Assembly (NCBI GenBank): GCA_028281535.1 | Contig: JANQJS010000037.1 | Coordinates: 124,001-188,000, forward strand | DNA length: 64,000 nucleotides | Reading direction: 5' to 3' | Source of the DNA: Sedimentisphaerales bacterium | GTDB lineage: Bacteria > Planctomycetota > Phycisphaerae > Sedimentisphaerales > SM23-30 | Shown: piece after piece, positions 31,138 to 58,685 of the stretch | Layout: the number at the start of each line of letters is the position of its first letter | Numbering within the stretch: the first letter of the stretch is position 1 | Position numbers and translations under genes: made by a program | The notes under the pieces: model-generated | Told to the model about the DNA's origin: nothing | Database searches by the model: none | What the model saw: the letters and a program-made list of their open reading frames with translations, nothing else

Positions 31138-31638
31138 TTACGTATTTTCTGTGACTGGTGAGGTTTCACTTTTAGGCACCGCACCTGTTTTACTTACGAG
31201 CTCATCTAGTAAAAGACCTAAATTGTCATAGGTTCGATCAGACAATTTAAGTGTTTTTTCTGAATTATTAAGTTCATATCCAATCGTAATGAGCCCTTTT
31301 TCCTTGAATTTACGATGATCGATGTAGGTAATATCTTTGTAACTTATTAATTCTTTATCGCATACGTTCAATCCATCCTCTTGTGCAACGAGACGTTTTT
31401 TCGGATTTCTGACCGCGGCAATCAGGCAGTAGGTAGCAATAAGCCCAAGTGGAATGGGGGCATATTGGTTGAATAACAGGTTGGCCGTTGGTTTACCATT
31501 TTCATCAGTTTCTTTGGCACGATAGCTTTCACTGAAGTAGCCATCATAAACACAATAGATACCAAATCCAAAAAACATTGCCGCAATCATCAAATTATTA
31601 TTGCGATTAAAACGACTTCCTTTTGCTTCAACAGCCAT
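31138..31638 (-). CDS. Two-helix membrane protein of unknown function
   Basis: 166 aa from the ATG at 31638, which has GGAGAG at the right distance; a GTG four codons upstream is the alternative. Two membrane helices (about 18-34 and about 65-82) are followed by a small beta-rich cytoplasmic part (LNVCDKELISYKDITYIDHR ... IGYELNNSEKTLKL), which resembles the PH-like domains of bacterial membrane proteins. A Ser/Thr/Glu tail ends it. No family was recognised. Confidence 0.7.
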   Translation of the reverse strand: MAVEAKGSRFNRNNNLMIAAMFFGFGIYCVYDGYFSESYRAKETDENGKPTANLLFNQYAPIPLGLIATYCLIAAVRNPKKRLVAQEDGLNVCDKELISYKDITYIDHRKFKEKGLITIGYELNNSEKTLKLSDRTYDNLGLLLDELVSKTGAVPKSETSPVTENT

Positions 31639-31809
31639 TAAACTCTCCACGAAGTGAAAAAAAAGTTAACTTTATCAGACGATAACCGTGCTGAATTATA
31701 GTGCTTAACTTAATAAATTGCAAGTAGATCAGCATTGATCTGGCCAGATTTCGAATACCCAAATAGTCTTTGGGCTCACCGCTTTTAGTGATAAATCAGT
31801 CTGGAATTC

Positions 31810-31838
31810 TTGATTTTTAGGCTAAAATGTTGTATACT
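31810..31838 (+). promoter_or_regulatory. Sigma-70 promoter driving the structured RNA
   Basis: TTGATT (31810-31815) and TATACT (31833-31838) are 17 bases apart, the ideal spacing. A start site near 31845 would give the RNA that ends at the terminator at 32290. No coding gene lies on the plus strand in between. Confidence 0.65.
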
Positions 31839-31844
31839 AATTAG

Positions 31845-32290
31845 TGAACAAGTTAATAAACGTTTCTTCTAAGCCATTCAATAAAGATAACAGACAGTAA
31901 TTTTTTTAATCTTTTCTTTTCCGCGTGATTTATTTGTGTCTGTTTAACAGGCACATTTTCCGCGTGCGTCCCCTTGAGTTTGGGATGCTGCGTACATATA
32001 TTTAGGCTGCGTCATCTGCAACCTGGCGCAGCCGTGAACGATATCTGGTAGAGAAAGTGACCTGCTAGTTCGTTGTAATATCGTGAAAATGATTGTGAAG
32101 TGGTATGCAGAGGAAACTTAAAATTTGACATATATCAAACGAGGCGATTCTGCCTCAACCATAACGACTGTGTGAAAGCACAGCCCAAAGAACGCAGCAT
32201 TGAGCTGCCGCCACTACGACAATGGATTCGTAAAAGTGGCTAACAAAACAGGCAAGCCCGGCCCCGTCATCGCTGGGCTTGCATTTTTTT
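31845..32290 (+). ncRNA. Candidate structured non-coding RNA (about 450 nt), class unknown
   Basis: A promoter (31810-31838) and a strong terminator (32252-32290) frame a stretch without a plausible ORF. Nine local hairpins can be read in it: 31935-31955 (8 bp), 31966-31988 (7 bp), 32005-32033 (7 bp, GGCTGCG/CGCAGCC), 32039-32083 with an inner stem, 32124-32139, 32141-32156 (GAGGC/GCCTC), 32168-32183, 32194-32208, and 32211-32239 with an inner stem. I searched by eye for marks of tmRNA, RNase P RNA, SRP RNA and 6S RNA and could not establish any. It lies in the 690-base gap between two minus-strand genes. Confidence 0.6.
32252..32290 (+). terminator. Rho-independent terminator of the structured RNA
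   Basis: GCAAGCCC (32252-32259) and GGGCTTGC (32275-32282) form a perfect 8-bp stem, followed by A and seven Ts. The T-run is on the plus strand, so transcription comes from the promoter at 31810. The minus-strand gene converges on it from the other side. Confidence 0.85.
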
Positions 32291-32336: not shown

Positions 32337-33089
32337 TTAGCGACGTTGTGCAATCGCACCAACAATCGGCTGAATAAATGAAGGAACAAGCCTATCCGTC
32401 ATCAATTCAATGCTGACGTGTCGTTGGTTTTCATAAGATTCCATGCAATTAAATTGTTTGGCAGGATCTGGGTATTGCCGAACGGATAAATACAAACTGA
32501 TTTGATCTTCTTCTTTATATTTTCCAGTTCGTACTTGATACGCACCCGTACGAGACTCAACAGAAATTCGTGCTTGTAGTCGGCAATCTTCCGACAGGCT
32601 CACTAATATGGCTGGGTCAAATCCCAGCGGTTTTGAATTAGGTAAATCGAGAAGTGAGACGAAAGGTGTACTTTGGAATAAGGCTTCAGCCAAAATTTCA
32701 TCATGGTTACCTTCATAATCAAAATCCATTCCGAACATAACATCCAGAGAATTGATATCTAAATGATTGACCCCTAACGCAAAAGGAATTTGCTCAAGAA
32801 TCAGTTTGTTCAATTGGTCAACCTGCTCAAAACTTTCAGGATTAACAATGCCGCTACAGATGCGATCTTTTTCGATACAGATCCAACGATAGCTTCCACT
32901 TTCGCGATCCTCATCTAAACAAAAATCGCCTGATTCCCGTTGATAAAAGGTATTCATCGTTGGGTATTGTCTTTGGATGCGTTCGAAAAAATGCAATATG
33001 GTATCACGATCGCTTGGCAATTCAAGCTCAGTGTTTAAGGTCATGTTCACATAAAAATCATCACACAAAGAATTAAATGATATGGACAT
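32337..33089 (-). CDS. Conserved planctomycete-type protein of unknown function
   Basis: 250 aa, soluble, without signal peptide or membrane segment. From memory it closely resembles a protein conserved across planctomycetes, beginning SISFNSLCDDFYVNM and containing SGSYRWICIE, the acidic stretch FGMDFDYEGNHDEILAEALF and ARISVESRTGAYQVRTGKY. An N-terminal helical and a central alpha/beta part are followed by beta strands with conserved Arg/Tyr. Its role is not known to me. It is monocistronic, with 165 bases to uppP and the structured RNA's terminator directly beyond its stop. Confidence 0.7.
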   Translation of the reverse strand: MSISFNSLCDDFYVNMTLNTELELPSDRDTILHFFERIQRQYPTMNTFYQRESGDFCLDEDRESGSYRWICIEKDRICSGIVNPESFEQVDQLNKLILEQIPFALGVNHLDINSLDVMFGMDFDYEGNHDEILAEALFQSTPFVSLLDLPNSKPLGFDPAILVSLSEDCRLQARISVESRTGAYQVRTGKYKEEDQISLYLSVRQYPDPAKQFNCMESYENQRHVSIELMTDRLVPSFIQPIVGAIAQRR

Positions 33090-34706: not shown

Positions 34707-36521
34707 TTACTTTGCAGACGATTGTTTCGTTCTGGATTTTTCCAGGACGACTTCTAAATTTGTAAGCACTTTTTTGACTTGAGGTTCTTTCAAGGCAAGA
34801 ATGTCTTTTAATGCTTCGCCAATAGCCGGCATATATTTTTCGATATAGCTTCGTTTGAGCGCCTCTTCTTTGGCACGCTTAACACCGCGAAGATATCGAC
34901 CTAATTTTCGGCCTGCATCTGAAAGAGCCAATTTGATTTCTTTAATGATTTCAGGATAGTGCGCTACCGCTTCTTTACTTTCCGATGTAAACGGAACCCA
35001 GACCGAGGCAATATGAATAATAACTGTCACTGGACCTGATGGTAATGCACCGCGACTTTGGGATAAACCGTAAAGTCGCCAGTTGGTTTGCACGATTGAT
35101 TGAAACGTTGCACAAGCCGATTGTTGATATTGCAGAGGCACACGGTTGGCAAAACGCAACACCCGCATCATTTCACCTTCCACTTCTTCTTCAGATTTTT
35201 CTTTACCGTTATTGATATCTGCGTTGTAGCCACTGCCACCATAGGCAATTCCCACTTCAATTTGAAATGGATTACCGCGATAAACGTTTGGTGGACGGGT
35301 ACAAGTTGAATAGAAGTCAGCCTGAACCACTTGCTCCAAACCTTTTTCTAACGCTTCCTGCCCAATCGGTTCAACACAACTGGTGCTCGGTGCCATGATT
35401 TTTGTTTTGTTAATCGCTTCGTGAAGTTTTTCGGCATCACTATGAGATAGAGTATGCGGATTTTTTCGTGATGTTAATTTGGCTTTGTCCAGAATTTGTT
35501 GACTGACTTTACTGCTGACACGAGAAAACTCTTTCATTAGAAAAGCCGTCATGGTTTTTTCGCTGGTGTCTTTGGCCATTTTAATAAGAATACCCAGTTC
35601 CACACCATATGGGTGAGGCTTGACAGCTTTGGGGCTTTTGACGGCTTTTTTGACTGAACGTTCAAACAAACGTTCTTGTCCATCAGGTGGAATGTATTTA
35701 ATTTGAGCATGCGGATTGACAATCGCTGTTTGTGCTAAATATTCATCAACGCCCTGTCGACCTTTTTGATACTTGGCCACCATCTCAATTTCTACGCGTG
35801 TTCCCGTGCGAGCATCCCATTCGACCACGTCATCTTTAATAATTTCAGGTTTGTTCTTTTTGGTATTGATTTGCAATTCATAATAATGTGCTTTGCTTCG
35901 CGGGCCGGTTTTACTATGAATCTTGACACTTTTACCTGTCGTAATCAATCCATACATTCCCGCAGCAGAGATACCGATTCCTTGCTGGCCTCGACTCATC
36001 TTTAAGGCATGGAATTTACTGCCATACAATAGACGACCGAAGATATTGGGGATTTGCTGTTTCACAATGCCGGGACCATTATCTTGAACCCAAACAGTAT
36101 AACGTGTTTCGGAAAGTTGCTTAATCCCTACTTCAAGATCAGGTAGAATGTGTGCTTCTTCACACGCATCGAGTGAGTTGTCAACCGCTTCTTTTACTGT
36201 TGTAAGTAAAGCTTTTCGTGGATTATCAAAACCTAACAAGTGGCGGTTCTTGGCAAAGAATTCACTGATACTGATTTCTTTTTGATTGCCAGCCATTTCA
36301 TGAGCCTTGGCTTCAATCTTATCTTCGGAAATAGGATCGACATGTCGACTTGAAGCTTTGGCTTTTTTTTCGGTTGTTTTTTTCGCCTTAGCTACTTTTT
36401 TAACCACCTTCTTTTTAGCGACTTTTTTCTTTGTCGTCTTTTTACTCTTCGAAGCTGGTTTTTCATCCCCGCCAAAAAGCTCCATCTGGCCTTTTGCAAC
36501 TTTTACTTTTTTCTTTGCCAT
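34707..36521 (-). CDS. top6B: DNA topoisomerase VI subunit B with lysine-rich N-terminal tail
   Basis: 604 aa from the ATG at 36521. Residues 1-60 are an Ala/Lys/Val-rich basic tail like histone-H1-type tails. The GHKL ATPase follows: N-box EAVDNSLDA (111-119), G1 DNGPGI (147-152), G2 GQQGIGISAAGMYG (178-191); then H2TH and transducer regions to about residue 590. Top6B binds ATP and works with Top6A (Spo11-like) to pass DNA duplexes; the pair is typical of archaea and plants and scattered in bacteria. No Top6A gene is adjacent. Downstream lie pgpA and uppP. Confidence 0.92.
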   Translation of the reverse strand: MAKKKVKVAKGQMELFGGDEKPASKSKKTTKKKVAKKKVVKKVAKAKKTTEKKAKASSRHVDPISEDKIEAKAHEMAGNQKEISISEFFAKNRHLLGFDNPRKALLTTVKEAVDNSLDACEEAHILPDLEVGIKQLSETRYTVWVQDNGPGIVKQQIPNIFGRLLYGSKFHALKMSRGQQGIGISAAGMYGLITTGKSVKIHSKTGPRSKAHYYELQINTKKNKPEIIKDDVVEWDARTGTRVEIEMVAKYQKGRQGVDEYLAQTAIVNPHAQIKYIPPDGQERLFERSVKKAVKSPKAVKPHPYGVELGILIKMAKDTSEKTMTAFLMKEFSRVSSKVSQQILDKAKLTSRKNPHTLSHSDAEKLHEAINKTKIMAPSTSCVEPIGQEALEKGLEQVVQADFYSTCTRPPNVYRGNPFQIEVGIAYGGSGYNADINNGKEKSEEEVEGEMMRVLRFANRVPLQYQQSACATFQSIVQTNWRLYGLSQSRGALPSGPVTVIIHIASVWVPFTSESKEAVAHYPEIIKEIKLALSDAGRKLGRYLRGVKRAKEEALKRSYIEKYMPAIGEALKDILALKEPQVKKVLTNLEVVLEKSRTKQSSAK

Positions 36522-36627
36522 CCTGGCATGATCTCCTGAGATTTCCAAGTGAGTGTGAAGGCTCACTCATTACAACTTATTGATTCCACAGAAATAATAT
36601 CGGCACAAAAGGGCCCGTACAAGTAAA

Positions 36628-43572: not shown

Positions 43573-44346
43573 TTATAGCAGGCCGGCCATCAGAGCCCAG
43601 CGACCCGCCGTTTGCCCGTCTCGCCGGTAAGAGTAGAATAGTTCATTTTCTTCAAAGGTGCAATAGCCGCTTTTTTCAACCTTGGATTCTTTAAGGCCGG
43701 ATCGTAAAAGTTGGCGGTAGTTGAATTCGATTAAGTCAAAGTGCCAACGATCATTATGAGGTTTAAATAAATCTTGATCATTAGGGGAGTTTTGTTGTAC
43801 CGCATCAACAACTTCTTGCCCTACTTCAAAACAATCCCCACAAATTCCTGGCCCAATACCTGCAAGGCAATGTTCGGGATCACAATTAAATTCTGATTGC
43901 ATTGAGTCAATCAGTTTTTCAGAAATACCTTTGACGCTACTTCGCCAGCCCGCATGGGCCAAGCCAACGGCGTGTTGGCTTGGATCATAAACAATGATTA
44001 ACGGACAATCGGCACCGATTAACATGACATTACATCCTGGTTGATTAGTAACGACGCCATCGGCTTTTTCGATGTTGGTTGTTGGGTGATTGGCATTGAT
44101 AATATGATTGTCATGAACTTGTTGGACGCGAACGCGTTGATTAAAATCCAGAGCCAATGCTTTGCAAAACCATTGTTGATGTTTAAGAGATCGCTTAGGG
44201 GTATCAGAAGAAAAATTAAAATCGATGGTTTTTTGATTGAACGGATCTATTTGATGGCGAAGTGAAAGGCCATGTGATAATTTTAGCTGATGATTGAGTT
44301 GATCAAAGACGAGGACATCCAAACCTTGTCGTGTGATTTTTTTCAT
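43573..44346 (-). CDS. pgeF: Peptidoglycan editing factor / purine nucleoside phosphorylase of the YfiH-LACC1 family
   Basis: 257 aa. The Cu-oxidase_4 (DUF152) signature is present: LIGADCPLIIVYDP with the metal Cys, VGLAHAGWRSSVKG with the His, and GPGICGDCFEVG. Family members act on purine nucleosides; E. coli YfiH also removes wrongly placed L-serine from peptidoglycan precursors. C-terminal YSYRRDGQTAGRWALMAGLL is typical. It is 24 bases downstream of the zinc dehydrogenase gene. Confidence 0.9.
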   Translation of the reverse strand: MKKITRQGLDVLVFDQLNHQLKLSHGLSLRHQIDPFNQKTIDFNFSSDTPKRSLKHQQWFCKALALDFNQRVRVQQVHDNHIINANHPTTNIEKADGVVTNQPGCNVMLIGADCPLIIVYDPSQHAVGLAHAGWRSSVKGISEKLIDSMQSEFNCDPEHCLAGIGPGICGDCFEVGQEVVDAVQQNSPNDQDLFKPHNDRWHFDLIEFNYRQLLRSGLKESKVEKSGYCTFEENELFYSYRRDGQTAGRWALMAGLL

Positions 44347-57083: not shown

Positions 57084-58685
57084 TTATGCACCTACTGTAT
57101 CTGCTTGTTGCTCTTTGGAGCAGGATTGATTTTTAATTTCAGACAATTCTTCACGTACCAATTCCAAATCGGCAGGGCCAACTCGCCCGGCTAGTTGCCA
57201 AAAGACGGTTAGGTCATTGACGCCGACTTCAAAGGTTTCGATACCTTGTTCAAAAGGTTGGCACATGTTTTGGTCATTAATGAATGAGCCGGATTTTTCC
57301 GCCCAAACAGCACTGGCAAAAACAACGTCTGCCCGCTGACTTAATTTACTATCTAATATATCGCTAACGATAAGCACTTTGGCATTTCGTAGTTTTTCAA
57401 CCATCTCATCAGGGCACCAGTTCTGCCAAGGGTAACCGCCTTGAACGAAGATGCCTTCGATTTCATTTCGACCTGCAGCCTCAACCAAATCGGTAAAGGT
57501 CATTTGGTCACCACCGAATGTTTCAAGTATTAACTCCATGCCGCGACGGTTAGGAGCTTTTTCTTTGCTAATGGTAAAACCTGCTTTAAAGGTTTCATCA
57601 TTTTCTGCATTAAAGACAGGGCCGCGAACCAGAATCGCCTGTTCATTGAGTTCTCTTGCCCAACTTGCTGCAAGCCATTGTTCTTCCAGGCTTGCCATGG
57701 GGCTAATGACAACAGCAAGTTTACGTCCTGTTTCAGGAGTAAATTCGCTGAACATTTCTTTTGCAGAATCTACAGCATTTTCAATTGAACTGTCATACAT
57801 CGCACTATCACGACGTACCTGGCAACGTTTGATACGTTCATCGGCATGAACATATTTAAAACCGTGACGACCTTCATCACACATCCAATAGTCATTGACT
57901 TCTGGATTGTGACGAGGTTTTAATCGGTAAATCACACCTTTGTTATAGTCGACGGTGATATTGCAACCTTTGCTGCAACCTGCACAAACGCTATCTGCTG
58001 ATTTGAGTTCCCAAACACGCTGTTTGAATAAGAATTCATTATCTAACAATGCACCGACAGGACAAAGATCGACAACGTTACCAGCAAGTTTGTCATTGAC
58101 GCCAAATCCTGGGAAAACATCGATTTCACTGCCATTGCCACGTTCGTGGACATATAGTTCGCCACCACCTGATATTTCACGGGTAAAGCGAACACAGCGT
58201 GTACACATAATGCAACGATCGCCATAGAGTAGCACTTTTTCGCCGACTTGCTTTTTGGGTTGTTTGATTTTATCTTCACGGAATCGGCTTTCGCTTTGTC
58301 CATGATTATAACTATGATCTTGAAGACCACATTCACCAGCTTGATCGCAGACAGGACAATCAAGTGGATGATTGATGAGAAGAAATTCCATGATTTCTTT
58401 TCGATGTTGTTTTGATTTATCGGTATGGGTATTGACGACCATGTTGTCAGTCACTTTCATTTGACATGACATCATGACCTTAGGAAACATTTTGACATTG
58501 CCATCGGCATCTTTGCTACCGGCTTCAACGGCACATAGACGACAAGATGCTGCAACACTTAAACCTGGATGATAGCAATAATGAGGAACTTCTTCTTTGA
58601 CGTTTTCTTTAATCACGTCAATCAGCTGCCTACCTGCTTCGGCTTCAACATCCTGGCCATTTATTGTAACTGTAACTTTTGACAT
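57084..58685 (-). CDS. nuoG: NADH-quinone oxidoreductase subunit G (short form)
   Basis: 533 aa from ATG 58685; an in-frame TTG three codons upstream is possible. It binds N1b (CYHPGLSVAASCRLC with a later Cys), N5 (HPLDCPVCDQAGECGLQDHS with a His ligand), N4 (CIMCTRCVRFTREISG) and a CAGCSKGCNIT motif for the N7-like cluster. The molybdopterin-like domain that follows is much shorter than in E. coli (908 aa) or Thermus (783 aa). It is two bases from nuoH. Confidence 0.93.
   Translation of the reverse strand: MSKVTVTINGQDVEAEAGRQLIDVIKENVKEEVPHYCYHPGLSVAASCRLCAVEAGSKDADGNVKMFPKVMMSCQMKVTDNMVVNTHTDKSKQHRKEIMEFLLINHPLDCPVCDQAGECGLQDHSYNHGQSESRFREDKIKQPKKQVGEKVLLYGDRCIMCTRCVRFTREISGGGELYVHERGNGSEIDVFPGFGVNDKLAGNVVDLCPVGALLDNEFLFKQRVWELKSADSVCAGCSKGCNITVDYNKGVIYRLKPRHNPEVNDYWMCDEGRHGFKYVHADERIKRCQVRRDSAMYDSSIENAVDSAKEMFSEFTPETGRKLAVVISPMASLEEQWLAASWARELNEQAILVRGPVFNAENDETFKAGFTISKEKAPNRRGMELILETFGGDQMTFTDLVEAAGRNEIEGIFVQGGYPWQNWCPDEMVEKLRNAKVLIVSDILDSKLSQRADVVFASAVWAEKSGSFINDQNMCQPFEQGIETFEVGVNDLTVFWQLAGRVGPADLELVREELSEIKNQSCSKEQQADTVGA

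Follow-up and report, generated by a model that had tools for sequence, protein, structure and literature searches.

The window, a stretch of 64,000 nt, lies on contig C20 of a 4.44-Mb planctomycete genome (G000). Two minus-strand genes within it, tm170 (31138-31650) and p250 (32337-33089), are separated by a gap of 686 nt. Its plus strand carries a promoter (31810-31838) and an intrinsic terminator (32252-32290), and the ~450 nt after the promoter hold no convincing ORF. An earlier note on this DNA had described 31845-32290 as an ORF-less unit of ~450 nt with hairpins and its own promoter and terminator. This was confirmed, as the unit is intergenic and no ORF is conserved across the homologues described below; for example, a 47-aa frame at 32100-32243 has no counterpart in them. 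The predicted product is a non-coding RNA of ~446 nt (31845-32290, plus strand, as are all RNA features below), based on the promoter-to-terminator span, the predicted fold and homologues in nine other genera, with its ends inferred from the positions of the promoter and the terminator. A search with the covariance model R2 found a single copy in G000.

The gene tm170 encodes a small membrane protein that no Pfam or NCBIfam family matches above cut-off. It is located just upstream of recG and is present in 148 of the 161 genomes of the order. In each of the ten genomes where the RNA was found, tm170 lies next to it in divergent orientation. On the other side, p250 encodes a conserved planctomycete protein of 250 aa (42-78% identity over 42 loci across Planctomycetota), also without a Pfam or NCBIfam family, and is the convergent neighbour in seven of the ten. 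The gene downstream is convergent to the RNA at every one of the ten loci, and is a different gene in the genomes G011, G006 and G009.

The promoter, TTGATT-17-TATACT, is no better than chance if considered alone, with five promoter-like sites found against 5.8 expected. Its significance comes from conservation across homologues, not from the window scan alone: the hexamer positions and the 17-base spacer are the same in ten homologous loci, with the -35/-10 spacing exactly 17 bases before the RNA in 10/10 genomes, and the 17-base-spaced promoter proposed earlier is indeed present. The homologue promoters were, however, chosen for mutual likeness among several candidates upstream of each core, so that the uniform spacing is partly a selection effect. 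Judged from the sequences, the stronger point is the shared letters TTGC...TGTGTTA; the homologue consensus is TTGC-(N)-TGTGTTAnAAT, and TTG[C/A] with an extended -10 (TGTGTTAnAAT-like) is found in all ten.

At the other end, the terminator (32252-32290) reads GCAAGCCCGG-11-CTGGGCTTGC followed by T7, giving a 10-bp stem, an 11-nt loop and a U-run. Six of its ten pairs covary and 99% of the base-pair cells are paired. The terminator scan of the window missed it because that scan permits loops of at most 8. Inverted repeats of the form CAAGCC...GGCTTG, like the stem of this terminator, also occur at 43960-43982 and 57671-57694 on the plus strand, making three in the window where 0.2 would be expected; terminators in this lineage may habitually use such a stem.

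Between these two signals the RNA is predicted to form many hairpins. Its 446 nt give a folding energy of -141.6 kcal/mol, where shuffled sequences average -112.2 (z -4.57; none of 100 shuffles was as good), and the 3' 171 nt have a fold z of -5.32. In all ten homologues the core folds with z between -3.6 and -7.0, or between -1.8 and -5.3 if the terminator is removed. The nine local stems counted previously are a fair tally of the predicted stems, of which comparison supports HB, H1 to H4 and the terminator. In the 5' domain, the variable, CGCG-closed hairpin HA (31961-31992) comes from predicted folds, and a similar hairpin can be seen by eye ahead of HB in most homologues. HB itself (GGCTGCGTC/GGCGCAGCC, 32005-32033) has 62 of 63 cells paired in seven homologues aligned by hand, and eight of its nine pairs show changes on both sides, a count reached by none of 2000 shuffles. 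Elsewhere the 5' domain is variable, and the total length ranges from ~245 nt (G011) to ~515 nt (G010).

The 3' core consists of four hairpins with short A-rich linkers between them, followed by the terminator stem. Directly 5' of it lies an unpaired ACAUAU (32128-32133), which in the alignments is kept in several homologues and is found exactly in six of ten. H1 (32141-32156) has both-side changes in four of five pairs and 96% of cells paired. H2 (GACUGUG/CACAGCC, 32166-32185), which contains a recurring non-standard pair, mostly A-C, is supported by the covariation count and by RNAalifold on a sequence-only alignment. H3 (GCAGC/GCUGC, 32194-32208) covaries in 5/5 pairs with every cell paired, and H4 (32210-32240), the apical part of which is variable, has both-side changes in six of seven pairs and 90% of cells paired.

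Searching with the whole RNA by DNA BLAST returned short pieces only, and the homologues came instead through synteny and the covariance model. One short match, with 79% identity over the terminator region, was located in another genus, at the same place between orthologous genes. Collecting the p250 loci of the family yielded six other genera with the RNA at the same place, where sequence similarity is low and the order of hairpins recurs. A search of 161 genomes of the order with R1, a covariance model of the 3' core built on seven hand-aligned sequences, then returned all seven together with three unseen members of the family, in G011 (E 3.3e-18), G006 (E 2.6e-17) and G009 (E 3.0e-9). Each of the three adjoins tm170 in divergent orientation, with other neighbours differing. 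Since the model held no position information, these finds beside tm170 are the strongest independent evidence.

In total, the RNA was found in 10 of the 13 genomes of the family, and in 10 of the 11 in which tm170 is assembled. Two of the others, G008 and G012, are incomplete assemblies with no RNA match and no detectable tm170, and in G003, which also gave no match, a coding-like stretch fills the place of the RNA. Most of the named relatives are metagenome-assembled. No convincing RNA was found outside the family in 161 genomes of the order (R1) or 397 of the class (R2), searches whose stricter filters can miss weak matches, such that distant members may escape; nor did a scan with the filters off detect anything convincing at 30 tm170 loci, of which 29 belong to other families. 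At the locus L041, where tm170 is near p250, there is no sign of the RNA between the two genes. As far as found, then, the RNA appears restricted to one family. Of the weak matches that other families gave (E 1e-7 to 1e-2), the eight best full-length ones were examined and rejected: their scores came from GC-rich terminators, and none of these has tm170, recG or p250 nearby. A second match in G009 (on C120, E 3.5e-4), which resembles a coding end plus terminator, was also rejected.

Both conservation and covariation, the checks that the earlier note had proposed, were present. In a ten-sequence alignment of the core, 24 of 35 pairs have both-side changes and 94.5% of base-pair cells are standard, none of 500 shuffles scoring as high and slid partners pairing in only 27-44% of cells; the alignment had itself been adjusted to the structure, and the values are plain pair counts, not R-scape statistics. 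Hand alignment with N padding was used because plain MAFFT misaligned H1 and H4. With the sequence-only MAFFT alignment, RNAalifold recovered H2, part of H3 and the terminator, with both-side changes in 9 of 20 pairs, but neither H1 nor H4. Over the ten genera, all from a single planctomycete family, the RNA has kept its shape but not its sequence.

The RNA very probably is new, matching no known RNA family tested. Rfam 15 gave no gathering-score match for the window, and for the window and six homologous loci there was only noise at E<5, so that no family could be named. The earlier note had argued by eye against tmRNA, RNase P RNA, SRP RNA and 6S RNA, while allowing for either an unknown structured class or a diverged housekeeping RNA. 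Its exclusions were borne out, and the first option is the one supported: the RNA region has no match to the models for class A RNase P RNA (RF00010), 6S RNA (RF00013) or SRP RNA (RF00169), nor to tmRNA (RF00023) with Rfam or ARAGORN, and genuine genes for all four, above cut-off, are found elsewhere in the genome, which argues against a diverged copy of any of them. These are RNase P RNA at C43:83724-84077, tmRNA at C61:38802-39156, SRP RNA at C23:82540-82637 and, on the same contig as the RNA, 6S RNA at C20:207307-207487. Like the predicted gene here, that for 6S RNA is a stand-alone bacterial ncRNA gene, but 6S RNA forms a single long interrupted hairpin of ~185 nt, whereas the RNA at 31845-32290 is predicted to be an array of separate hairpins. 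OLE, GOLLD and ROOL are large structured ncRNAs, long and intergenic, with a narrow range and a structure conserved beyond sequence. The present RNA resembles them in all these respects, but it is shorter, its core is a simple open hairpin array, and it matches no Rfam family. Structures of large ncRNAs of this type are given in PMC12286853. Planctomycete structured RNAs have received little study, and among the open-access titles and abstracts found on them none describes this RNA.

Taken together, we are confident that 31845-32290 is a real new ncRNA gene. Comparison of the genomes shows that its promoter, structure, terminator and position are all conserved, and presence in 10 of the 11 genomes with an assembled tm170, compensatory evolution and a fixed promoter together imply a maintained function. 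How that function is exerted is less certain. The account we lean towards is that of a free-standing, trans-acting multi-hairpin RNA with its own promoter and terminator that works by binding protein. It would be transcribed from a sigma-70-type promoter of its own and stop at its own terminator, giving a product of ~245-515 nt, and the hairpins of the 3' core would be presented to a putative protein partner, as an RNP scaffold or a protein-titrating RNA, rather than serving as a fixed antisense seed. We infer protein binding from the persistence of the structure despite drift in the loops and in most of the letters, every core helix having compensatory changes on both sides; as a mode of action it is put forward tentatively. 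Against this account, some unpaired letters (ACAUAU and the A-rich linkers) are kept too, as a pairing sRNA would show, the RNA is restricted to one family, and the alignment is fitted to structure, with two core hairpins missed by the sequence-only one. A narrower version, a lineage-specific planctomycete RNP in which a housekeeping-grade structured RNA that arose in one family has a dedicated protein partner and there is no detected Hfq, is doubtful.

The main rival is an Hfq-independent base-pairing sRNA acting in trans, with ACAUAU or the A-rich linkers pairing with mRNAs and the hairpins merely stabilising it. Short conserved unpaired stretches do sit between the hairpins, and a promoter and terminator of its own are typical of an sRNA gene, but every unpaired stretch is less well kept than the structure, ACAUAU occurs exactly in only six of the ten homologues, and Hfq was not found; we consider this reading somewhat unlikely. 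An Hfq-dependent sRNA is disfavoured since the Hfq model matched none of the 13 family genomes, compared with 5 of 14 control genomes. The constant divergent adjacency to tm170 would also fit regulation of tm170-recG in cis, by the RNA or by its transcription through a shared promoter region. However, the RNA and tm170 do not overlap, transcription interference has no need of a covarying 3' core, tm170 is widespread in the order with no RNA found next to it at those loci of other families that were inspected, and G003 has a coding-like stretch at the RNA's place, making such regulation improbable. A sponge for CsrA of the CsrB/RsmY type would likewise be a row of several hairpins with its own terminator and presumed protein binding, and CsrA is present in 12 of the 13 family genomes, but GGA motifs show no enrichment (their counts mostly equal or fall short of expectation, with 3 observed and 6.1 expected in the window RNA) and the loops of H1-H3 lack it, which leaves this reading very improbable. 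Equally remote is a leader, riboswitch or attenuator of the gene that follows, or a small-peptide mRNA: a structured RNA ending in a terminator would suit the former, but the next gene is always convergent and not always the same one, which also speaks against a fixed antisense to p250, and the lack of a conserved ORF speaks against the latter. For experiments, the conservation of this RNA in bacteria where Hfq was not detected offers a defined family that has both a covariance model and a known place in the genome.

Some minor observations concern the protein-coding genes. The tm170 homologue in G005 (L002:2163-3062) has a long internal insertion, giving two separate matching pieces within one 300-aa frame. 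In G006, p250 (C33:8643-9372) is split into neighbouring matches to residues 1-127 and 137-250, which suggests a frameshift or an assembly error. Further along the window, at 34707-36566 on the minus strand, lies a gene resembling that for topoisomerase VI subunit B, here in a bacterium.
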